A stretch of 41,813 nt of DNA. It comes from a virus. A model generated the notes under the pieces. The model ran no database searches, was not told the DNA's origin, and saw nothing but the letters and a program-made list of their open reading frames with translations. Within the stretch, counting starts at the first letter, position 1; each line of letters opens with the position of its first letter. Made by a program: the position numbers and the translations under genes. Shown piece after piece: positions 21,392 to 41,634 of the stretch. The stretch covers positions 1 through 41,813 of the IMG/VR virus record IMGVR_UViG_3300010885_002215; one strand, given 5' to 3'.

Positions 21392-24300
21392 ATGAATGAA
21401 GAAGCAATAAAGGACGCATATAACTTATTTGTTCAAAATGGATACAAGAAAAGTATCGACGAGTTTAAGACCTTAATGTCTTCAACACCCGAGGCATTAA
21501 ACGACTCGTATAATATATTCGTAAAAAACGGGTATAATAAAAGCATTGACGACTACAAGACGCTAATTGGTGTAAGTGGAGGTCAACGGGCACAACCTGT
21601 GCAGCCTACACAACAGGCGCAGGATATGCAGCAAGAGCAGCCTGTAGATGAAGGGCATGCACAGCCACCATTAAAAAAAAAAGAACAACCAAGTTTTTCG
21701 GCATTGCCATTGGCAGATGGTTCGTCGGCGTTACCTACTACCCAAGGAACTCCTAGTCCATTACCTCAACCAACCGCACAGCCTGCAACACAGCCTGCTG
21801 TTAATACTGCAGTGCAACCAACCGCACAGCCAACAGGACAGGTTCCTACTAAACCTGTAGATAATAAAGAAAAGTATTTTACCAATTGGGCAGGCGTGTT
21901 GACGCCTGATACTGTGCCAAACAGGGTAGAGAATGCTGTACAGGAGTACACAACCGTTCCGTTAACTAAGTGGTTCCTTGAGTCTGCAGATAATATAGTT
22001 AACGCATCTAAGAACATACTGACAGGGACAGGTTTTTTTGGGGAGGACATACCCGACACTGAAACCCCTATAACAGACGCACTGAAACAGCAACAGCAAA
22101 AAAAACAAGTTGATAAAAATGGTAACATTATAACAACTGCATTTGGTATGTTAGGAAAAACAGGTGACGTTGTTGCATCCATTATTATAAACTCCGTGCT
22201 ACCTCAAGACACGAAGAACAAGTTAATAAGTAACCTAAACAATGCATCTGCAGCCAATAAGGAGTACCTTAAGTCAATGCAAGAGGCTGAGGGTAAGAAC
22301 CAAGACACAAACATTGCGTCTAGGGCAATAAAGGGCATTGTTGGCATGGCGCCTGACTTACTACTAGCCGCAGAACTTGGGCCACAGGCGGCAGAGGCTA
22401 AACTAGCTAAGTACGGTGAGACTATAACAAAGAATGCCGCACCTTTATTAAAAAAACTTGTACCGAATGCGTTGGGATTAATAGAAAGAGGCGCACAGTC
22501 AGGATTTACAAAACTGATGGCTATAGAGGGCGCAGTTAAAGGGGTTGCTGAAACTAAAAAAGACGAGAATTATTTTTGGAATGGTATAAAGGGGTCTGCA
22601 GAGGGTGCACTAGAGGGCATGTACATGCACGGACTTGGTGAGGCTGCAGGCGCTGCCGCTACTCCTATAGCAAAGTTGGTGTCAAAGACCGGGGTTAACA
22701 GCGCAATAGCAACGGCTATAGCCACCCCTCTTGCAAATGCGGGAGTTTTTGCGACAGCAAAGGCGTTAAGGATGGGTATTACAGAACAGAAACTTGTGTC
22801 AGGAGAAGACCTTGCGATGGAGGCCGCAACAGGTGTTGGATTCAGTCTTTTGCATCTTGGCAGTCAGTACAAGAACCATAAAGAACTTAACCACTACTAC
22901 GACAATGTACTTAAGGACGACGCCGCAGATTCATTCACTAGGGTTATAAATGAGACAAAGGCTAATTTAGATGTGGCATACACTCCCGACCTTACACCGG
23001 AGCGTGTTAAGGAACTACAGACCGCAAGGGATGAGATAAAGGACGCAATATTAAAGGAACCCGACCTAAAAAATAAGACCATACTAGGCAACGAGGCTAT
23101 AAAAATTCAGAACCAATTAGATGCACACGCTTCTATAAAAGGAATAGTAGAGAATAAGGACTTCCTTGTAAACGAGATAGCACAGAATGAAAAATTAGAT
23201 CAAAAACAGAAGGACTTCTACACAAAGAAGATAACTGCAATTGCAGACGCATACGACACGTCTCCTCTTGGTATACAGAAGAGGGAGTTTAACAATAAGA
23301 TAGGAGAGGCTCAGTCTGAGTTGGATAAGGCCGCTCAGGTTTTCTCAAGCGCAACAAAGCCATCAGATAGGATAGCCGCCAAGATTGAGTTAGATAAAAG
23401 GCAACAGGAGTTGGACGACTACAACGCACAACTAACCGAACTAATAGCATCCAAGCCTGAGAAGGCAGAGGTTAAGCCTACGGAGGCTCCTGAGAAGACG
23501 GCTGAAAGGATTGCAAGGATTGCAGATATTGAGGCGACATTGTCCCAACCCGATAATGGAAAGGGAACCGTAACTGTTGACGATAAATTAATCGAAAGAT
23601 CAGACCTAGAAACAGAATTAAAAACTTTAAAAACTGAACAAGATGCCATTCAAAAACAAAGCACAAATGAAGGCGTGCTACGCACAGAACAACCCGAATT
23701 GGGACTGCAAGAAGTGGGCCAAGGAAACGCCCAACCTGAAAGAGTTACCACAGGGGCCGAAGAAGCCATCGCTGCTGCGCAACCGCAAGAAGTAGTTAAT
23801 CCATTAGAAACAGTTGAATCTACAACTACGGCTTTAGGAAATTTAGATATGCCTTGGTTTGATGATTTTCAAAACAAATTTGGAGAAGAATATAAAACAG
23901 CCAAAGAAGTTGCAGAGGCATACCAAAAAGCAAAAGCAGATAACAGCAATCCTGAACTAGTAAAAGCTGTTGAATCGTTACTAGTAAATGCTGCTCCTGT
24001 AGTTGAGGCTGCACCTACAGTTGAGGCAGAGCAGTACGTACCAATGCCTACCACAGACCTATCTCATGATGCGTTCACTAGGGACAATGCCATTGACTTT
24101 GAGGAGGATGAGAAGGAGGGAAATAACGGAAGGACGTACTCGTACATCTCGTCATTAACTGTAGAGGCTAGGAACGCTGACGGCGAATCAATCGGTACAA
24201 TTACCAAGAAGGCTGACGAGGATGGAAACCTTAGTTTTGAGGTAGAAAATACAGACGGCAAGCAGTTGCATAAGGAGGGAGGGTTTGAGACGCTTAAGGA

Positions 24301-27300
24301 CGCAAAGAAGGCGCTAGTAGACGACGTAAATAAGACACAAAAGAAGGCGTTTGATAAGGAGGCTAAGGCGCAGGCAAAGATAGCAGAGAAGGCGGCCAAG
24401 AGAGCGGCAGATAAGGATGCAAAGAAGGAGGCGAAGGCGAAAGGGGTTGTGTCTTCAACGACACCAACTGAGGGTACTGTTCAAGAGGTTGCTCCAACTG
24501 AAAGATCAGCATTTAATGAAGGTGTTGCTGAGGTTCAAAAAAACGCAGAGGAGTATAAGAAAGCAAATAAAATCAATAGAAGGTCTAGCTTATCTGTTCC
24601 TAAACTATTTGAGAAGGTATCAAAAATGATGTCTAAGGCTTATGAATTGGTTAAAAATGAACCTAATCAAGCTGCAGTAAAAAGGGCATACGATGCCATG
24701 ATGAGTGAGACAATGACTCAATATGATTTCATTGTAGGAAAGGGGTTAAATGTAATTAAGCATACAGGTACAGGAGAGCCATACGCAAACTCTAAGGATA
24801 TGTTAAAAGATTTAAGGGAAAATAATACCCTTAAGTTTCTTCCTAACGAGGTAGCTTTTGGAAATGAACCTACATCTGCTGCTGATAATATTGGTTTACA
24901 ACCTAGTGGTAGAAAATTACCTGATGGGTACGAACTTACCAACTCTGAGGTATTTAGGATAGTACACGATTACTTTGGCCATGGTATACTTGGAAACCAA
25001 TTTGGCCCAATAGGAGAAGAAAATGCAACACTACAACATCTTGATTTATATTCAAGTGAAGCAGCACCTGCAGTAATATTCCAAACTAGAGGGCAGAACT
25101 CTTGGGTTAATTTTAGTGGAGAGAATACTCGTGCTGCTGAATTAAGAAAAGAAGCAAAGGAGTTAATAAAACAAGGAAAGAATGTAGAGGCAAAGAAATT
25201 ATTGGCAGAGGCAGATAAAATCTTTAAGTTTGCAGAGCCTAAAATAGGAATATTCCCTGACATTTTTAATTTTAAAAAATATGAAACAGCAAGAAGAATC
25301 AACGAGCAAGAAGCTGTTAACAGCAGAGCAGACAAAGGAACTAATGACCTATCCCGTTTATTGGGAAAGTACTCTAAGGAAAGCCGCAGAACGAGGGGAG
25401 TCAATAAGCAAAACGTACGAGGAACTAAAAGAATTGGAGGGGTTGATGTAAACGTAATTAATGAGTATACTTTTGATGATAAAATAAATAACGGAATACT
25501 TAGTGCATTTAAAAATTTTAAAGGAGTACAGAAAGTATACGAGATGACTGACGGAAAGGCTTACCGTGAGATGGTAATTAAGTCATTAAAGAATAATAGA
25601 TTTGCATCATCTGTTACTGTTCATACTGCAGAGGAATTTAATAAGATGAGGATGTTCGTAACAGAAGACGGCTCCACAGGTATTACTATAAATGAAGAAG
25701 GATTTTTAGGCGGGGCATTCTCTGACCCTAGCGCAAGTAGACCTCAAAACTTAGCACAACTAATGGTTTTAGGTATTAAAGAGGGGGCAACAACGTGCGA
25801 AGCGTTTGATACAGTTCTTCCTGATTACTATTCTCAATTTGGTTTTAAAGCTGTTTCAAGAACTGAATTTAATGATGAGTACAGGCCAATGGAAGCCAAT
25901 GGCAACTCAGTTATTGATTGGGATTACGAAACCTATAAAGCGTTTAATAACGGTAAGCCTGATGTAGTATTTTTTATATACGATGGAGGTAACCGTGATA
26001 CTATTGAAGATAGGATAGGATTATTTGATACATATAATAATTACGATAAGGCACAAACTGAATCATTTGATAAGGATGGGTATGAGCATGCAGAAGAGGT
26101 AATGAAACAGTCTGCTGTTAAGAGACTTGAGTTTGACTTAGGTATAGAAGAGGCTCCAAAAACTGAGGTAGAGCAGGAAGTTGCAGACCTAAACGATATG
26201 TTTGGAGAACAGGTTGGCACTACAACTTCCGGGACATCTGTTGCAGACAAGGCAGACATGGACGCAATGAAGGCTAGAACTACAGATGAAAAACAGTTAA
26301 AAATAATTGAGTCTGCAGAAAAACTTTCAAAGACGTTAGGGTCTGTACTTAGAAACTTTGGCATATTCGTACATGAAAGTAATGAAAGTTACAATGCAGC
26401 TATGGCTTCTGATGACGTTATGGGGGTTGGAGACACTGCGGGAAACTTCTCATACATTAAAAATGCTGACGGTACTTACTCGGGACGTGTAGATATTAAC
26501 CTATCTGCGGCTAACGAAAGGACAGTTGCGCATGAGGTTACACACGGTGTTATGCTTAAGGCGTTTGGAGAGAATCCTGCGCTATTTAAGACGTTCCGTG
26601 ACAGGATGTCTACCATACTTTCGGACAGCACTAACAAGGAACTTACAGACTTTGCAAACCAATACGTAGACAGCAAGACGGGTGAACTCAAGGACGTGGC
26701 TCATGAGGAGTATATGACCGAGTTGATTGCAGCGTTGGCTGAACAAGGAGGGAAGATACCCGTTGGTACCATGCAAAAAATTGCCGTACTTATTAATAAG
26801 GTGGTGTCTAAGATTACCAACGGTAAGTTCCAACCTTTTGAGGATATAAAGAACACGAAGAACTTGGTTGACTTTATAAACAGCGTGTCTAAGTCTTTAA
26901 ATAAAGGAGAGGTAATAAGTCCTTCTAATATAAATAAGATTGGACTTAGTGGTGTTATAGACACGTCTAATGCGGTAAAGTCAAAGAGTTCAATAGCTAT
27001 GGGTGAACTTAAAAGATTCCCCGTAAATGAAAACACTAAACTAGAGGAGGATGTTAAGTTATCTGACTTTGACGGAAAACATATAAGTTTGATAGAATCT
27101 GATAGGATGACAGGTGCGCACATATCAGACACTGAGGGTAACGTATTGTATAAATTTTATGGTGGTGTATATTATCCTATAATTACAGGAAAATGGTGGG
27201 CATCAAAAGAAATAAAAAAAGCAAAAGAAATTGCAGAAGTTGGAAATAATAATAGAGATAAAGATGGATATATATATACAGCACCTATGGTTGGTGGCGC

Positions 27301-30300
27301 TGATATGCATATGAGTAATGTAGACATGTTAAATTCAACAATTGAGTTGATGAAGTTTGACGCTAAAAATAAAAAATCAAGTGTAACCAAGGACGATATA
27401 ATTAAATATATAAAAAAAGCATTTGATAAAAAAAATCTAGCAGATAAGGCGTCAATACTAAGATCAGTATTAAGAAAATCAAATAATACAGATACATTAT
27501 TTGACGAGTTGAAGTATGTACTATTACAGGATGGTGAATATATAGTAGATAGAAATGGTAAACCATTCTTAGATGAAAATAAAAATAAAATATCCACATT
27601 TGCATTTGACGAAAGGAAAGAAATTGTAAAAGGCATATTAGGAGACCCGAAAGTTCAAGATAATAAGTTTCCGTCTGCAGGTTCTATTATTGATGTAGCA
27701 AAAAGATTTGAGGAGCCTATAACAAGTAAAGTAAAAAGAATGGGTGACTTGGTTACCGTTATGAGAACTAAAGGTAAGCTAGAAGCAAAAGTTTCTGATG
27801 TAAATGATGAATTTTACCATAAGTCGTACCCTGCAGAAATTCGTGCGGTAGATGAGAATGGAAATCCTGCAGAGATTGAGGTATTTATATTAGACGGTGC
27901 TTATAGCATGAGAGATGTTTTACCATCTTTAAAAACAAAAAAAGGAAAAGAATTTACTTGGGAACAATACCTTGAATATCATAAAGAAAAATATAATGAA
28001 AAACAGATAGAAAGTTGGTATAATAGAAATGCAAAACTAGGGGCCGCAACAGGCAAAGTTGTTTCAAAGTCTCAGAAGGTTAAGTTTACAGACATGCGTG
28101 GCAAAAAAGTAGACGTTGAACTAGACAACATAAAATTAAAGCCAAGGGATGAGATAAATTTAGATGAGGAAAATAAATGGAATCATTTTAATATAGAGTC
28201 TGACGGTGTTACGTTGGGGTACATACAGGTTATGAAGAAGGGAGAAGACGTAAAGATTGCCCTTTCTAGTATAATAGACCCTAAACTTAAGGCAGACAGT
28301 GCCACAGGAAAGACCAATTTTATTGGAAAAGTATTTGAATTACTAAAGGAAATATTTGTAAAGCCTTTCAAGGGTGACGTTATAATAGAGTCTAACAAGG
28401 GTAAGGGAATTGGTTCTGCTGCGTACGATGCGATGGCAAGGATATTAAAGAACGACTACGGCAAGAAACTTATATCCGACACGTCAAGGTCTGACAATGC
28501 TGAGAATTTATGGAAGTCTTTGGTAAAGAAAGGGAAGGCCGTAGTTGTTGGAGATGTAGACAGCAAAAATAGGTGGGAGCACTACTTTGAGTACGTTGTT
28601 CCGAAGGAAGAGGTTACGTCAAAATCTCAGCGTACCAAGGAAGATACCGTAAATAAGATAGTGAACCAAGCAAGGTCTCACGGATTCTCCGAGGAATCTA
28701 TCACCAAGTTCCTTACCGACAAGGGTTTCTCTGACGTTGAAATAAAGAACGCACTAGGAAACGCTGCGCCTACTGAGACACTTTCTGAGCAAAAACTTGC
28801 GGGATACGACGCAATGATGACAAAGGTTGACGCCATGGTTGCTAGGCAGAAAAGAAAAAATATTGACGAGGATAAGATGGCGCTGAACGTAGACAAGTTA
28901 ATTAGGGACACGGATGCGTATAAAAACGCAACAGATGCGCAGAAGAAACTGTTAGAACTAGAGGGCAGGAACAAGGTTGGCGTAAGGGAAAGAAGGGCGC
29001 CATCTATTGGTCGTATACTTGGCTCAATCAAGGATTTCACTAGCCTTACTAGGAACGATAAACTTAACATGATTAAGCAGATAAGAGACCTTTCAAAGGA
29101 TGCGGCTAAGAACTTGGCTCAGGAGATTAGGTTCATAGCAAGCACCGGGAAAATATCTCCAACTCAGGCGTCTAATATTGTCGCAAGGTTTGGCAAGGTT
29201 AACATGCTAAGCGAGTTATCTGTTTCAAACTTTGTGGACTACATGTCAAAGGTTTTAAACGATGCTCAGTATGCATCTAAACTAAATGAGGCCAAGGGCC
29301 TTAAGGGTACAATATCTCAACTGTCTAGGAACCAAGAGAAGAACGCAAACCTTAGAGAGTTGGCAAAGGAGTTCATAAACATCAACCCGTCGTTAGTTGA
29401 AAGTATTGACGACTACAACTCGATGGCTAATAAGATAAAGGAGGCAATTAAGGGGTCAACTGCCGTTGGTGGTAAGGTTAAGTTTGCTGAGACAGTTAAT
29501 ATAGAGGATGCCGTGGCCTATACAAAGGAGGCGATGAAGAATCAGGAGGAGGTTATGCACGAGCAGAAGGCTGCCGAGGTTCAGAACCTTATGGGCATAG
29601 ATTCGTCAGAGTTCTCGTACGATGAGTTGGTGGACATGCTTAAGAAGGACAAGCCAATTAGCAAGTATAACGAGTCTATAATCAAGGACACGGTAGATAA
29701 AATGTTTGGTACCTACTCTGCGGTTATAAAGGACATAATTAAAACGGGAGTTGACCCGTTCACGGGAGAGGACGTGTCGTACACAGATAGAGAAAAGGAA
29801 ATCATAACCAAGTTCATGGGAATGGATACCAAGGAGATGACCACAAAAAATTCGTTAGAGGCAATAGACGCCATAGCAAACTTTTTGGAGAACAAGTCCA
29901 CCGCAAAGATGGATGCGATCACTTCTAGGTACATAGGGGAGAGGAACAGTAAAATAATTTTAAAAAAAGGCATTATGGCGGTTCCTCTTAAGAAGCTATT
30001 CTCAAAGTCATTGGGTAGGGTTCTTACGGAAGGTACGACCAACCTTAGTATGGTATTTGAGAAGATGTTCAAGGGATTCCATCGTGGTGGCGAGGTTGAG
30101 AAGGCTATGGGCGTTACAACACTTATAAACAAGAAGGCGTTTGCTCAGTCTACAGCCGATGGTATAACCAACGACTACATCAAGAAGTTCTACGACAAGA
30201 GCGTTAAACCAAATGGAGAGGCTTTTAATAGCGCAGAGAATAATATTGAGCGTGGAATGGCTGCGTTCATGATGAGGACTGTTATTGGAACAGAGAAGAA

Positions 30301-32488
30301 GATGGCTGCAGAGTTTAGTAGAAGGAAGGGACTAATCGAACAGACCATTGACGTACTATCAAATGGTAACGAGAAGGAGAAAGAGAAGGCGGCAATCTAT
30401 AGGGAGGTATACGAAAAGTTACTAAAAGACTCTGAGACTATAAAGGACGTTAAAGACAAGACAGATAAAATAAATTTAGATGCGGTTGACTATTGGCATA
30501 AGCAGTGGGATAGCAAGTACGATAGGTTATCTGACGTAGCAACAAATGTTTACAATAAGGTGCTAACCAAAGACCTCAACTACTCACCTGACAGGTATTC
30601 TAAGATGGGAAGCTATTCAGAGAACGTAGACCTAGCAAACGATCAGTCTGCGTTTATAAACAATACCAACGGGGTATTATATAATAAAAAGTCGGGCGTG
30701 TTAGAAGACGTTACGCATACGGCATCTCTTCCAAAGGATGACTTTGGTAAGGTGATGTCATTCATTGACCTGTCTTTTGATAAAAACAACTCAAACTCAA
30801 TGTATGATGCATTGGTTGATATTGAAACTGCTGCACCAATTAGGCAGGTTCAGGCGTTCATGGAGTCTAAAAACTTTGAGAAGATTATACCAACTGCAGA
30901 GGATGCGCAGCTATTAAAGAATAGAATTAATCTATATGTTCAGAATATCAGGAAGAAAAGTCCTTACACAAATGATGAGTACTCGAAGGCTATAAGGAGA
31001 ATAAATAAGATAGCTGCAGTTGGAGTAGGTCAGGCATTGGGTGGTATTACACAGCCATTCAAGCAGGTTATACCCGTGGCAATAAATACCGTTGTAAACG
31101 GTGGAGGCATATCATTGGGTGCAGCATTCGACGGAAACTTTAACAATTGGTTGAACAAGTCAGGTTACGCAATTGCGAACAGGGGTATTGAATCTCAGGC
31201 AGAGATTCAGTCTATAAATAAAATGATCGAAGAGGCGTCTAAGTCAAACGTATCTAAGGCGATAAAGATTATAGAGGAGGCCAATAAGAAGTGGATAGAC
31301 CTGTTCCTAGTTAAGCCGGACGTATTGGTGGCTAGGGCCTCGTTTAAGACGTTCTACGAGCAGTCTTTAAAGAAGCAGCGTATTGACGTGAACGGATTAG
31401 ACTACTCTACACACAAGGTAAACGAGGAGGCTGCTGATTACGCACAGAAGATGGTAGACAGACAGCAGAATATATCAGACCATGACTTGGGTGGCAAGTT
31501 ATTTACAAGCAAGGAGCCTTCAACTCAGGTTCTGATGAAGATATTTATGCCGTTTGCTAGTTTCAGGATGAACCAATCAACTAGGTTGGCGTCAGACATG
31601 TCTGTTCTAGGACATTGGAAAATCTCTACACCCGAGGATAAGATGATTGCAGCTAGGTCGTTGGCAGGATTTGCTGCAGAGATGGCCACATTTAAGGTGA
31701 TGTCAACCTTAGTTTCTGTTTTAATAGGAAACATAGCCGCATCTATCATGGGCAAGGATGAGAACGACGAGGAGAAGAAGAAGAGAATAGATGGGGTTAT
31801 GAAGGGACAGGCTACGGGTGCTGTTACAGACATATTCTCACCGCTACCTATACTTGATAAGTTCGTGCAGACAGGAGTTGCATCTATATCAGATGCTGTT
31901 CAGCAGTCTCTTGACATATCTGAGGAGGACAGGATGAATATTTACGGCACTAGGAAGGAAGACTTCGTTAAAAACTTTGGCATGTATGGAATCGCACCTG
32001 ACAGGGCCATTCAGTTCTATGAACTAGTTAAGTTGGCTCAGACGGGAACCTATAAGGATGACTTTGGTAAGGAGAAGCAGATATCTAGCGACAGTCAGGA
32101 TGCGCTCAAGAAACTAGTTGGCCCTGCGCTTTTAACAAACATTGGAATGGCGCCATCTGAACTTGCGTCTGTTATAAGGAACGCTGTTAGTATGGCTAAG
32201 AAGAAAACTTCGGGCGAGAAGAGTGCAGAGAAGGCACAGACTGCTGCTGCGTCTGCAGCACGTTCGGGAAGGAATTTATTGGAAGGATACGACAGTAGGG
32301 AGTCAATGAGAAGATACAACCCAAGACTGTACGAACAAACTTTTGGTAAAAAATCAGATTGGTATAAGGAACACAAGTCAGAGATGGAACAAAAGAAAAA
32401 AGAAAGGCAGGCAGAAAGGAAGGCTCAGGATATTAAAGAAAACTATCACCCTAATACAAAAACAAAAACTGAGTACAGTAACTATTAA
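21392..32488 (+). CDS. Giant polyvalent internal virion protein, 3698 aa
   Basis: One 3698-residue frame. In order: two 30-residue repeats with AYNLFVQNGYKKSIDEF (8-28, 38-58); a Gln/Pro/Thr-rich linker (about 65-150); Ala-rich hydrophobic helices (315-465); coiled coils; a domain with His1192-Asp-x-x-Gly-His1197 followed by EENATLQHLDL; a GNAT-like domain (about 1360-1550); a zincin with HEVTH (1714-1718) and downstream Glu1772/1777; a domain with GGADMHMSN and YHKSYPAEIRA (1873-2235); a second GNAT domain with NKGKGIGSAAY from 2335; long helices; and one membrane segment (3431-3454). Polyvalent proteins of this kind are injected with phage DNA and act on host targets. Position after two ejection proteins supports that. 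No RNA polymerase motif was found. Its stop codon overlaps the stop of the opposing gene. Confidence 0.85.
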   Translation: MNEEAIKDAYNLFVQNGYKKSIDEFKTLMSSTPEALNDSYNIFVKNGYNKSIDDYKTLIGVSGGQRAQPVQPTQQAQDMQQEQPVDEGHAQPPLKKKEQPSFSALPLADGSSALPTTQGTPSPLPQPTAQPATQPAVNTAVQPTAQPTGQVPTKPVDNKEKYFTNWAGVLTPDTVPNRVENAVQEYTTVPLTKWFLESADNIVNASKNILTGTGFFGEDIPDTETPITDALKQQQQKKQVDKNGNIITTAFGMLGKTGDVVASIIINSVLPQDTKNKLISNLNNASAANKEYLKSMQEAEGKNQDTNIASRAIKGIVGMAPDLLLAAELGPQAAEAKLAKYGETITKNAAPLLKKLVPNALGLIERGAQSGFTKLMAIEGAVKGVAETKKDENYFWNGIKGSAEGALEGMYMHGLGEAAGAAATPIAKLVSKTGVNSAIATAIATPLANAGVFATAKALRMGITEQKLVSGEDLAMEAATGVGFSLLHLGSQYKNHKELNHYYDNVLKDDAADSFTRVINETKANLDVAYTPDLTPERVKELQTARDEIKDAILKEPDLKNKTILGNEAIKIQNQLDAHASIKGIVENKDFLVNEIAQNEKLDQKQKDFYTKKITAIADAYDTSPLGIQKREFNNKIGEAQSELDKAAQVFSSATKPSDRIAAKIELDKRQQELDDYNAQLTELIASKPEKAEVKPTEAPEKTAERIARIADIEATLSQPDNGKGTVTVDDKLIERSDLETELKTLKTEQDAIQKQSTNEGVLRTEQPELGLQEVGQGNAQPERVTTGAEEAIAAAQPQEVVNPLETVESTTTALGNLDMPWFDDFQNKFGEEYKTAKEVAEAYQKAKADNSNPELVKAVESLLVNAAPVVEAAPTVEAEQYVPMPTTDLSHDAFTRDNAIDFEEDEKEGNNGRTYSYISSLTVEARNADGESIGTITKKADEDGNLSFEVENTDGKQLHKEGGFETLKDAKKALVDDVNKTQKKAFDKEAKAQAKIAEKAAKRAADKDAKKEAKAKGVVSSTTPTEGTVQEVAPTERSAFNEGVAEVQKNAEEYKKANKINRRSSLSVPKLFEKVSKMMSKAYELVKNEPNQAAVKRAYDAMMSETMTQYDFIVGKGLNVIKHTGTGEPYANSKDMLKDLRENNTLKFLPNEVAFGNEPTSAADNIGLQPSGRKLPDGYELTNSEVFRIVHDYFGHGILGNQFGPIGEENATLQHLDLYSSEAAPAVIFQTRGQNSWVNFSGENTRAAELRKEAKELIKQGKNVEAKKLLAEADKIFKFAEPKIGIFPDIFNFKKYETARRINEQEAVNSRADKGTNDLSRLLGKYSKESRRTRGVNKQNVRGTKRIGGVDVNVINEYTFDDKINNGILSAFKNFKGVQKVYEMTDGKAYREMVIKSLKNNRFASSVTVHTAEEFNKMRMFVTEDGSTGITINEEGFLGGAFSDPSASRPQNLAQLMVLGIKEGATTCEAFDTVLPDYYSQFGFKAVSRTEFNDEYRPMEANGNSVIDWDYETYKAFNNGKPDVVFFIYDGGNRDTIEDRIGLFDTYNNYDKAQTESFDKDGYEHAEEVMKQSAVKRLEFDLGIEEAPKTEVEQEVADLNDMFGEQVGTTTSGTSVADKADMDAMKARTTDEKQLKIIESAEKLSKTLGSVLRNFGIFVHESNESYNAAMASDDVMGVGDTAGNFSYIKNADGTYSGRVDINLSAANERTVAHEVTHGVMLKAFGENPALFKTFRDRMSTILSDSTNKELTDFANQYVDSKTGELKDVAHEEYMTELIAALAEQGGKIPVGTMQKIAVLINKVVSKITNGKFQPFEDIKNTKNLVDFINSVSKSLNKGEVISPSNINKIGLSGVIDTSNAVKSKSSIAMGELKRFPVNENTKLEEDVKLSDFDGKHISLIESDRMTGAHISDTEGNVLYKFYGGVYYPIITGKWWASKEIKKAKEIAEVGNNNRDKDGYIYTAPMVGGADMHMSNVDMLNSTIELMKFDAKNKKSSVTKDDIIKYIKKAFDKKNLADKASILRSVLRKSNNTDTLFDELKYVLLQDGEYIVDRNGKPFLDENKNKISTFAFDERKEIVKGILGDPKVQDNKFPSAGSIIDVAKRFEEPITSKVKRMGDLVTVMRTKGKLEAKVSDVNDEFYHKSYPAEIRAVDENGNPAEIEVFILDGAYSMRDVLPSLKTKKGKEFTWEQYLEYHKEKYNEKQIESWYNRNAKLGAATGKVVSKSQKVKFTDMRGKKVDVELDNIKLKPRDEINLDEENKWNHFNIESDGVTLGYIQVMKKGEDVKIALSSIIDPKLKADSATGKTNFIGKVFELLKEIFVKPFKGDVIIESNKGKGIGSAAYDAMARILKNDYGKKLISDTSRSDNAENLWKSLVKKGKAVVVGDVDSKNRWEHYFEYVVPKEEVTSKSQRTKEDTVNKIVNQARSHGFSEESITKFLTDKGFSDVEIKNALGNAAPTETLSEQKLAGYDAMMTKVDAMVARQKRKNIDEDKMALNVDKLIRDTDAYKNATDAQKKLLELEGRNKVGVRERRAPSIGRILGSIKDFTSLTRNDKLNMIKQIRDLSKDAAKNLAQEIRFIASTGKISPTQASNIVARFGKVNMLSELSVSNFVDYMSKVLNDAQYASKLNEAKGLKGTISQLSRNQEKNANLRELAKEFININPSLVESIDDYNSMANKIKEAIKGSTAVGGKVKFAETVNIEDAVAYTKEAMKNQEEVMHEQKAAEVQNLMGIDSSEFSYDELVDMLKKDKPISKYNESIIKDTVDKMFGTYSAVIKDIIKTGVDPFTGEDVSYTDREKEIITKFMGMDTKEMTTKNSLEAIDAIANFLENKSTAKMDAITSRYIGERNSKIILKKGIMAVPLKKLFSKSLGRVLTEGTTNLSMVFEKMFKGFHRGGEVEKAMGVTTLINKKAFAQSTADGITNDYIKKFYDKSVKPNGEAFNSAENNIERGMAAFMMRTVIGTEKKMAAEFSRRKGLIEQTIDVLSNGNEKEKEKAAIYREVYEKLLKDSETIKDVKDKTDKINLDAVDYWHKQWDSKYDRLSDVATNVYNKVLTKDLNYSPDRYSKMGSYSENVDLANDQSAFINNTNGVLYNKKSGVLEDVTHTASLPKDDFGKVMSFIDLSFDKNNSNSMYDALVDIETAAPIRQVQAFMESKNFEKIIPTAEDAQLLKNRINLYVQNIRKKSPYTNDEYSKAIRRINKIAAVGVGQALGGITQPFKQVIPVAINTVVNGGGISLGAAFDGNFNNWLNKSGYAIANRGIESQAEIQSINKMIEEASKSNVSKAIKIIEEANKKWIDLFLVKPDVLVARASFKTFYEQSLKKQRIDVNGLDYSTHKVNEEAADYAQKMVDRQQNISDHDLGGKLFTSKEPSTQVLMKIFMPFASFRMNQSTRLASDMSVLGHWKISTPEDKMIAARSLAGFAAEMATFKVMSTLVSVLIGNIAASIMGKDENDEEKKKRIDGVMKGQATGAVTDIFSPLPILDKFVQTGVASISDAVQQSLDISEEDRMNIYGTRKEDFVKNFGMYGIAPDRAIQFYELVKLAQTGTYKDDFGKEKQISSDSQDALKKLVGPALLTNIGMAPSELASVIRNAVSMAKKKTSGEKSAEKAQTAAASAARSGRNLLEGYDSRESMRRYNPRLYEQTFGKKSDWYKEHKSEMEQKKKERQAERKAQDIKENYHPNTKTKTEYSNY

Positions 32489-40256: not shown

Positions 40257-40556
40257 CTAGAACGGTAAGTCTTCGTCTTCTGCAGGTCTCTGCGCCTGTG
40301 GCTGAGCCTTTACCTTCGTAGCCACTGCTGTTGGTTTACCATCAGCCTTCGGCTCGTAGGTGTCCAAGTCCATGTAGTAGTTGCCGGAGCGTGCCTGCTT
40401 TACGTTCAGGTTTACCCAACCATTCTTTGCGTTGTCCTTCATGAATGCGACAGCGTCGTCCACCTTAATGGAAAGTCTACCGATTACAAACTCAGGAGCG
40501 TTTTCGTTTCTTTTGAATACGAATCCGTCAGCGAAAACTTTTTCTTCTTGTGCCAT
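40257..40556 (-). CDS. SSB-like single-stranded DNA-binding protein
   Basis: A 99-residue protein: a short beta-rich body (FADGFVFKRNENAPEFVIGRLSIKVDDAVAF, then GWVNLNVKQARSGNYYMDLDTYEP), a Gln/Pro/Ala-rich linker, and the acidic hydrophobic tip DEDLPF, which matches the C-terminal partner-binding tail of bacterial SSB (DDDIPF). The body is shorter than a standard OB fold of about 110 residues, so it may be a diverged or minimal ssDNA-binding protein. It is encoded with the exonuclease and tRNA cluster on one transcript closed by a terminator, a setting that fits recombination and replication. The alternative is an unrelated small replication protein with a convergent tail. Confidence 0.72.
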   Translation of the reverse strand: MAQEEKVFADGFVFKRNENAPEFVIGRLSIKVDDAVAFMKDNAKNGWVNLNVKQARSGNYYMDLDTYEPKADGKPTAVATKVKAQPQAQRPAEDEDLPF

Positions 40557-40592
40557 ATTACTATGTTTTTTTGTTGCCCCAATCGATTAATC

Positions 40593-40628
40593 CAAGTGCA
40601 AGCCTTTGAGGCTAAGCCTGTCACTCAG
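40593..40628 (-). other. Hairpin-forming leader of the SSB-like gene
   Basis: On the minus strand AGCCT and AGGCT pair around CAA, with flanking AGTG/CACT that can extend the structure after an internal loop. It sits between the tRNA cluster and the SSB-like start codon, about 37 bases upstream of it. It could be an RNA-processing or translational control element. No known riboswitch was recognised. Confidence 0.3.
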
Positions 40629-40640
40629 TTTCTTTTTAGT

Positions 40641-40725
40641 ACGGAGTGTAGGGGTCGAACCTACACGATGACTATCCCCTCCTCCAAGATTTTATAGTCA
40701 TGCCTTACCCTTCAGCCAACTCCGT
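40641..40725 (-). tRNA. tRNA with extended, non-canonical anticodon arm
   Basis: The 85-base element has a perfect seven-pair acceptor (ACGGAGT/ACTCCGT), TG at 8-9, a D-arm GCT...GGC with GGGTA in its loop, and a standard T-arm (GTAGG-TTCGACC-CCTAC). The stretch between D- and T-stem is 37 bases. The best stem there is an eight-pair perfect match (ATGACTAT/ATAGTCAT) placed exactly where the anticodon stem should be, but with an 18-base loop, so the anticodon is unclear. A class II fold with a weaker stem and an eight-base CTATAAAA loop is the alternative; it would resemble Tyr or Leu tRNAs. No CCA is encoded. It is co-directional with neighbours and three bases from the next tRNA. Confidence 0.68.
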
Positions 40726-40728
40726 TGT

Positions 40729-40797
40729 AGTCAGGACAGGAATCGAACCTGTTATCCCCCTTATGATCGGTTACGTATGCCAACACGCCACCTGACT
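40729..40797 (-). tRNA. tRNA with poorly paired anticodon arm (possibly Met-CAT)
   Basis: The 69-base element has a perfect acceptor (AGTCAGG/CCTGACT), TG at 8-9, a D-arm GCGT/ACGT with TTGGC in the loop, and a standard T-arm (ACAGG-TTCGATT-CCTGT). Only 20 bases join D- and T-stem, two or three fewer than usual. The loop ATCATAA could present CAT (Met), yet its flanking bases give only two Watson-Crick pairs, so identity and even decoding ability are uncertain. No CCA is encoded. It lies between another tRNA and a tRNA-like element. Confidence 0.65.
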
Positions 40798-40805
40798 ATT
40801 TAAAA

Positions 40806-40879
40806 GGAAGCACCAACGAGTCTCTCGTTGCAATTGGGCACGGCTTGGTAACCATTCGGTCTTCCGCTCTTATGCTTCC
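40806..40879 (-). ncRNA. tRNA-like cloverleaf without tRNA consensus loops
   Basis: A 74-base element closed by a perfect seven-pair stem (GGAAGCA/TGCTTCC), the length of a tRNA and directly before two tRNAs. Inside are hairpins CGG-AAGA-CCG, TGG-TTA-CCA and, at the T-arm position, a seven-pair CAACGAG-AGA-CTCGTTG with a three-base loop. It lacks the TTCRA T-loop and a recognisable anticodon arm. It may be a degraded tRNA, a tRNA mimic or a processing signal. Confidence 0.4.
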
Positions 40880-40882
40880 GTC

Positions 40883-40900
40883 TGTGTCCTTGACGACACA
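40883..40900 (-). other. Hairpin between exonuclease gene and tRNA cluster
   Basis: TGTGTC and GACACA form a perfect six-pair stem with a six-base loop, two bases after the exonuclease stop codon. No T-run follows, so it is more likely an mRNA 3' end stabiliser or RNase cleavage landmark than a terminator. Confidence 0.35.
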
Positions 40901-40902
40901 AT

Positions 40903-41634
40903 TTATAACAAAAATTCGTCAATGAAGTAGTTAACTATGTCGTCAGTGGCCTCATCTCCAAAATATTTTCTGTATACCTCAATCGCCCGCTTAACCTTTG
41001 CCTCTCCACCAACAACGAACTCAGTAGTCGGCCTGAACACTCCTAGCACGCCTGTGGTCTTGTCGATCACGTAGAACACCAACGGCTTACCGAACAGGTG
41101 TTGGTAAATATAGCACTGACTGTCGTAGTTGTAAGCCTTGGCCGAGTACTTGAACTTGTGTATGTCTCCCGTGGTCTTGAGGTCAATCACCGAGTCGTGC
41201 GTTACGATGTCTGCCTTTCCCTTCCACATCATGCCCTGAATCATTCCAACTGCCGGGGTCTCGTACAGGTTTCCTTCCCTGTATATCTCGTCAAAGAACG
41301 TTATGTTCTTGTTGATGATCTTAACCAAACCCTCTACCTCCTCCTTCTCCTTCTTGAGCATGCAGAAAGGAAGGTTGTTATCCTCGCAGAAGTTCTTGTA
41401 CTCCTTGGTATTCCTCGTACTTACGTCCACGAACTTAATCTGTGCGGCCTTCTCAGGCTCTAGTATCAGTTGGTGGAAGTAGCGACCGTCCATGAACGCC
41501 TTGTTGTCTTCCCTGCTCTTGCCGTAGTCCTGTGGGTTGCTCAACAATGTGCCTATGTCGGAGTTTGACAGGTAGTTCCTGCCAATCCCCGAGTAGTACT
41601 CCTTGTCGTCCCTTAGTTGTTCTATTACGTCCAT
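40903..41634 (-). CDS. PDDEXK exonuclease (RecB/Cas4/RecE-like)
   Basis: A 243-residue nuclease with the complete RecB-type motif set: His54 in GRYFHQLIL, Asp142 in KGKADIVT, Asp151 and Lys153 in VIDLKTT, and Gln173-x-x-x-Tyr177 in YDSQCYIYQHL. An N-terminal YLSNSDIGTLLSNPQDYG resembles the start of the phage PDDEXK_1-like exodeoxyribonuclease group. Such enzymes chew one strand of duplex DNA for single-strand annealing recombination together with an annealing protein; the SSB-like gene lies downstream in the same transcript. The ATG shares one base with the stop of the upstream partial gene (TAATG). A recombination partner would be expected next door, and the partial gene at the window edge is a candidate. 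Confidence 0.88.
   Translation of the reverse strand: MDVIEQLRDDKEYYSGIGRNYLSNSDIGTLLSNPQDYGKSREDNKAFMDGRYFHQLILEPEKAAQIKFVDVSTRNTKEYKNFCEDNNLPFCMLKKEKEEVEGLVKIINKNITFFDEIYREGNLYETPAVGMIQGMMWKGKADIVTHDSVIDLKTTGDIHKFKYSAKAYNYDSQCYIYQHLFGKPLVFYVIDKTTGVLGVFRPTTEFVVGGEAKVKRAIEVYRKYFGDEATDDIVNYFIDEFLL

Follow-up and report, generated by a model that had tools for sequence, protein, structure and literature searches.

A family of phage RNAs that keep the tRNA scaffold and carry variable inserts in place of the anticodon arm

Phage-encoded tRNAs counter defences that attack tRNA (PMC10264068, PMC11555353), and natural tRNAs of odd structure, such as the allo-tRNAs and other non-canonical tRNAs found in metagenomes, retain the anticodon and are unusual in the lengths of their acceptor and T parts (PMC7609411). 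In an engineered version the acceptor, D and T arms of a tRNA are kept as a scaffold and a foreign RNA is placed at the anticodon stem-loop, the product being processed and protected in the bacterial cell (PMC3753655). The leucine identity bases reported in bacteria are A14, A15-U48, G18G19, A20a and A73, and charging of E. coli tRNA-Leu persists without the anticodon and variable arms (PMC9976931). Odd phage tRNAs are usually labelled pseudogenes or forced into an isotype, an example being the 'tRNA-Ala' of the elemo phages considered below.

The stretch of DNA analysed here, referred to as the window, is a viral record of 41.8 kb (IMG/VR record IMGVR_UViG_3300010885_002215; 41,813 nucleotides) whose protein families include terminase, portal and structural proteins. 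The terminase shares 78% identity with its counterpart in MW202828, a podovirus assembled from Manatee Spring, and about 45% with the one in the cultured 'elemo' phages of Flavobacterium sp. BAL314; these terminase relatives make a Bacteroidetes host likely, an indirect assignment. A 3698-aa ORF (window 21392-32488) resembles the giant structural protein of the elemo phages. The features that matter here lie in and around the gap, or slot, between two genes:

40257-40556, minus strand: SSB-like gene (ORF), downstream border of the slot; of 80 related loci, 78 have a downstream homologue.
40641-40725, minus strand: element A, tRNA-like (Rfam RF00005, 41.4 bits, E 1.4e-7; fold).
40729-40797, minus strand: element B, 69 nt, member of the scaffold family AGTCAGG...CCTGACT-A-C (RF00005, 30.6 bits).
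40806-40879, minus strand: element C, closed multi-branch RNA, GGAAGCA...TGCTTCC followed by UUUUAAA (fold).
40903-41634, minus strand: RecE/exonuclease VIII-like gene (phrog_412, 9e-24), upstream border of the slot.

A first-pass annotation had placed three elements between an exonuclease gene and an SSB-like gene and had described two of them as tRNA-like without a normal anticodon arm. Both statements hold: A, B and C all lie on the minus strand between these genes, and the RF00005 scores and the folds give A and B acceptor, D and T arms. Each has a 7-bp acceptor stem, a 5-bp/7-nt T-arm with TTCRA and a D-arm with GG, and a 5-bp/7-nt anticodon arm with U33 is absent from both in the Rfam alignments; the use of a covariance model had been proposed as a check, and the Rfam tRNA model finds no ordinary anticodon arm in either. 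In element A the seven acceptor pairs (ACGGAGT/ACTCCGT) are followed by A73 and C74, the D-arm has A14, A15 and GG, and the T-arm is of consensus form (GTAGG-TTCGACC-CCTAC), so that direct reading gives the full leucine identity set (A14, A15-U48, G18G19/A20a, A73). At the anticodon site the predicted arm has eight pairs in register with the anticodon stem and an 18-nt loop, AAAATCTTGGAGGAGGGG, much as had been claimed, and alignment to the Rfam tRNA model forces a 20-nt insertion in the anticodon loop; ARAGORN calls the element only 'tRNA-???'. When the 3' end of element A was searched for in viral contigs, no relative was found in any other contig. The loop includes GGAGGAGGGG, which is Shine-Dalgarno-like, and since this likeness is seen in element A only, no mechanism is built on it. 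Element B has perfect acceptor and T stems and a D-arm, and its anticodon arm is nearly stemless, as had been noticed, alignment and fold leaving about 2 pairs; it departs from the leucine set at the 15-48 pair, which is U-A and has covaried. Element C folds into a cloverleaf closed by an acceptor-like stem (z-score -3.72; none of 200 shuffles equals it), and the earlier remark that it lacks tRNA loops is borne out, there being no match in Rfam either. Closed non-tRNA RNAs are found at the corresponding place in the related loci L011, L022, L080 and L038, and those in the slots of L011, L022 and L080 share with element C a long closing stem, a position 5' of scaffold elements and a U-rich end (UUUUAAA in the window). 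These closed RNAs may form a second family of exchanged RNAs.

Of 80 related viral loci fetched with the exonuclease protein, 78 have an SSB gene that could be placed, and adding the window gives 79 loci for comparison. A tRNA-like element occupies the slot in 30 of these; another 23 have ORFs only, 23 a short leader only and the last 3 some other sequence. The ORFs sampled encode DNA methyltransferases belonging to three Pfam families (D12, MT-A70, N6_N4_Mtase), along with a Band_7 protein and small proteins without assignment. Because the contents alternate between tRNA-like RNAs, ORFs and nothing, the gap shows, by its contents, the pattern of an accessory-gene slot. Phage DNA methyltransferases are commonly anti-restriction. 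Both borders of the slot carry further RNA structures. A perfect hairpin, GTGTCGTCAAGGACAC, lies 3' of the exonuclease stop codon (window 40884-40899, minus strand); many related loci have one, and relatives have a GTGTCTTCAAAGACAC version. The leader of the SSB-like gene (window 40557-40630, minus strand) contains a conserved H-type pseudoknot, with a stem CTGAGTG/CACTTGG and a loop GCCTCAA that pairs with TTGGGGC; 61 of 79 loci are compatible with it, compared with 13 of 200 shuffles, and its second helix covaries (GCCTCAG/CTGAGGC, GTCCCAA/TTGGGAC, GCCTTAG/CTAAGGC, GCCCTAA/TTAGGGC). It is reminiscent of the autoregulatory pseudoknot of T4 gene 32.

One scaffold, AGTCAGG-TGGCGGAATTGGTAGACGC-insert-U-ACAGGTTCGAATCCTGT-CCTGACT-A-C, is common to most of the tRNA-like elements. 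Its 3'-end pattern is present in at least 120 stretches in viral contigs, and the scaffold in well over 100 viral contigs, totals that are lower bounds and not measures of prevalence, the metagenome contigs being redundant and partial. The genomes of 84,980 prokaryote species contain only 10 such stretches, all in metagenome-assembled contigs that are mostly labelled Bacteroidetes and on which several long ORFs match phage protein families, and a search of plasmids for family members found none. Among cultured phages, blastn with a 77-nt query recovered ordinary tRNA pieces only, and a second query recovered MW202828 only, itself a metagenome phage. An independent 5'-end pattern gave at least 47 usable loci, and the T-arm and acceptor complement followed downstream in 47 of 47 (34 exactly, 13 with small departures); the conservation of the two ends is thus no product of the search. 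A scanner for acceptor plus T-arm picked out 344 elements across the 2.1 Mb of related loci and a single one across 4.2 Mb of sequence shuffled by dinucleotides, which excludes chance as their source. The elements avoid ORFs (54 observed within them, 224 expected) and take the strand of the nearest gene in a ratio of 246:56. A single contig may have up to 11 matches to the 3'-end pattern, on one strand throughout and interspersed with ordinary tRNA genes, and in many phages runs of up to about six elements without a gene between them stand within tRNA arrays.

When one representative is taken per insert cluster, most scaffold positions hold 1.3-2 bits of information, with less at a few D-arm and T-loop positions, compared with about 0.02-0.13 bits at the insert positions sampled. 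C74 is encoded in 98.7% of scaffold elements and in 99.6% of the other elements, ordinary tRNAs, of the same loci. The tertiary pair 15-48 is A-U, G-C or U-A in 211 of 235 representatives, the maximum under permutation being 201, and this covariation argues that the tRNA elbow truly forms. The picture given by these alignments is one in which the acceptor stem, D-arm, T-arm and tertiary elbow are conserved, whereas an insert that varies from phage to phage and among the copies of one phage takes the place of the anticodon arm and variable region. It is close to certain that these RNAs, built on a tRNA scaffold and non-decoding, make up a real family. It is a large phage RNA family and apparently an undescribed one: no earlier description was found in the open-access literature, and a search of open-access papers for T4-type stable RNAs as a precedent likewise found nothing.

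The inserts are 25-150 nt in size. The 311 unique copies among the matches listed fall into 235 clusters, 193 of them singletons, and the figure of 235 is an upper bound because the clusters were set by a blastn threshold that may split remote structural homologues. An insert cluster is repeated in only 2 of the 65 loci with several copies. Within a 13-member insert family on one acceptor the insert helix has eight pairs, about 5-6 of which show compensatory changes, and RNAalifold predicts the same helix. One insert module is found on three acceptors, AGTCAGG, AACAGAG (L224) and AGTGCAG (MW202828), all fully paired, and has changes on both sides in 12 of its 23 pairs with 98.4% pairing, which none of 500 shuffles reaches; acceptor, insert and 15-48 pair all covary. 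Inserts in the D-loop and at the anticodon site occur in differing combinations (L016, L218, L220 and L221; L090, L278 and L322) and, on the evidence of these combinations, are swapped independently. The elements of L007 and L080 differ only in a block within the insert and in the first acceptor pair (U-A and A-U). An RNA module AACCCCGTT...ATGTGGTTAGAATCCACTACGGGGTTAATG is seen in the D-loop of two elements (L177 4212, L206 394) that are otherwise unlike and have different closing stems. Folding of the inserts is modestly better than that of shuffles (mean z -0.63), for which reason many inserts may be weakly structured, or may depend on partners or on pseudoknots. Antisense action was considered and rejected: 13-mer complementarity to all fetched loci looked enriched (2704 against 767), but the median insert was at chance, and a handful of inserts produced the surplus, chiefly where a region had been fetched twice in opposite orientation. 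The antisense screen of the fetched loci found no insert target.

An approximate 5-bp/7-nt arm with U33 is present in 14 of 192 scaffold elements; among the remaining elements of these loci the figure is 86 of 141. RNAs that have no anticodon would not decode. Of the tRNAs on the contigs that carry the scaffold, tRNA-Leu has the D-arm nearest to the scaffold's own (mean edit distance 3.9, compared with at least 6.4 for other tRNAs), the conserved scaffold bases agree with those published for leucine, and A14, A15, U48, A73 and GGNA are jointly present in 58% of the family. Descent from a tRNA-Leu ancestor, without selection, could also account for these bases. The 3-70 pair is U-A in 234 of 235 representatives and U-G in one, which excludes alanine identity of the tmRNA type, and the Rfam tmRNA model had no match at the elements examined. 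In L090 (7609-8193, minus strand) a phage tmRNA (49 bits) adjoins a group I intron (98 bits) with an overlap of a few bases, some 0.5 kb from scaffold elements. A separate kind of tRNA-like gene appears to have a swapped D/anticodon topology: where the D stem would be, a short stem surrounds a 4-bp/7-nt arm with an anticodon-like loop (CAT, TAT, GAT), and the GG segment comes after it (L093 11217, L129 4463, L155 4250, L264 1525, L315 1150); these are five plausible cases, two of them near-identical, compared with about 0.6 expected from shuffles, and a stricter scan gave none.

The explanation that we favour, with a probability of roughly 0.6, takes the elements for non-decoding RNAs that undergo maturation of the tRNA type, are probably leucylated and display fast-changing functional inserts, most likely in counter-defence or host takeover. 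Host RNase P and the tRNA 3'-end enzymes would cut the phage transcript, CCA would be added and the tRNA shape would shield the RNA; that the family RNAs mature like tRNA is, from their conserved features, very likely. Host leucyl-tRNA synthetase would probably then charge them because the leucine identity bases are kept, although for the family as a whole leucylation has about an even chance. It is likely that the inserts are functional. The most speculative step is that they are RNA effectors binding host factors, most likely components of anti-phage defence, which would explain both the turnover of inserts and a slot shared with DNA methyltransferases and small proteins; a role in counter-defence, argued from this variability and this company, is tentative and a little short of an even bet. 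More doubtful still is the fullest form of the proposal, that phages of the Flavobacteria type possess a natural tRNA-scaffold display, with up to about ten RNAs in a genome that are charged with leucine, have no anticodon and bear rapidly swapped inserts to inhibit or decoy host defence proteins. If true, the display system would be the RNA counterpart of hypervariable anti-defence protein loci.

Among the alternatives, the elements might be decoys whose elbow and acceptor soak up tRNA-attacking defence enzymes, whether nucleases or modifiers of the acceptor and CCA tail, the insert being irrelevant or serving only to abolish decoding. What stays constant is precisely the acceptor/elbow half, and phage tRNAs are known to act against such defences (PMC10264068, PMC11555353), but inserts of 25-150 nt with covarying modules and modular exchange would be left unexplained, and we regard this reading as unlikely. 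The first-pass annotation had raised a decoy for anticodon nucleases, an unlikely function for the family as a whole since an anticodon loop is retained by almost none of the members; the suggestion of tRNA mimicry made there can be retained in the structural sense only, a tRNA scaffold having been preserved across phages. It had also offered processing signals, at which RNase P and the tRNA 3' enzymes would cut polycistronic phage mRNA. The window elements are intergenic, elements share the strand of the genes and cutting by tRNA enzymes is plausible, but punctuation accounts neither for the diversity and the conserved insert families nor for runs of up to about six elements without an intervening gene inside tRNA arrays; a simple tRNA would do, and the gap is empty of elements in 23 of 79 related phages, so that as the main function it is improbable. 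A similarly poor prospect is that the elements are mobile or recombining cassettes with conserved ends as recombination sites and RNA that is incidental. Constant ends around a changing middle, the exchange of modules and the swapping of a whole RNA and tRNA cassette between close cultured elemo phages would suit it, but the acceptor ends can be changed completely with pairing kept, the tertiary pair covaries as in tRNA, and inserts are not common to the copies within one phage. The in-register stem of element A might suggest an intron-bearing tRNA that is spliced to a functional one, but across the family such a stem is found in 35 of 163 elements, compared with 24.8 expected from shuffles, and an Rfam scan of 20 scaffold-bearing loci returned, apart from tRNA, only a tmRNA and a group I intron, both in L090, with no further intron from L326 and L328, which makes splicing very improbable. 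Decay, which the truncated look of element B taken alone might suggest and which had been listed as a possibility, has almost no chance of being right against a scaffold that is near-invariant across phages, an anticodon region wholly replaced and hundreds of copies, and the comparison of related phages, proposed as a check, found compensatory changes and no random decay.

Among the relatives named above, MW202828 has an unannotated family member at about 523-630. In the cultured elemoA_7-9A and elemoC_14-1A the GenBank 'tRNA-Ala' lies near replication genes, and at the place of its anticodon arm the prediction gives an 8-bp hairpin capped by a GCAA loop; all eight of the other elemo records inspected have a normal tRNA-Met at that site together with a closed RNA similar to that in the slot of L038, and the remaining records match in the flank only. 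The link to the scaffold family is by analogy only, because the scaffold of the elemo element differs. Two close elemo relatives from one mesocosm (L326 10495-10570 and L329 1357-1500; MT497017, MT497073) have exchanged RNA cassettes at one site. GroEL/GroES-like genes lie near a scaffold and tRNA array in L324 (9840-11767) and are annotated in the elemo phage L326 (25450-27263).

Should the family prove functional, laboratories will have reinvented a format for modular RNA display at which phages had already arrived by evolution, and the family's hundreds of unrelated inserts become candidates for new RNA inhibitors of bacterial immunity. Since tRNA-like phage genes of this kind are unable to serve codon compensation, they also make the purpose of phage tRNAs partly testable, and a cultured system appears to exist in Flavobacterium sp. 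BAL314 and the elemo phages, of which close isolates differ in such a cassette.

Compared with known systems, the family has in common with bacterial tRNA-Leu the D-arm, A14, A15-U48, G18G19 and A73, but it lacks the anticodon arm and the standard long variable arm and its acceptor sequence is different. tmRNA likewise combines tRNA-like acceptor, D and T parts with an insert that replaces the anticodon arm, but it has G3-U70 alanine identity and a coding tag. The anti-defence phage tRNAs are also phage tRNA genes, partly in the same arrays, and an anti-defence role may be shared, but their anticodon arm works, and they stand in for a decoding tRNA or withstand its loss, whereas in the family the arm is given over to unrelated inserts. 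In allo-tRNAs the oddity lies in the acceptor and T lengths and the anticodon is kept, and the review that describes them (PMC7609411) makes no mention of phages. The engineered tRNA scaffold is man-made and built on tRNA-Lys, whereas the phage family is natural, leucine-like and hypervariable.
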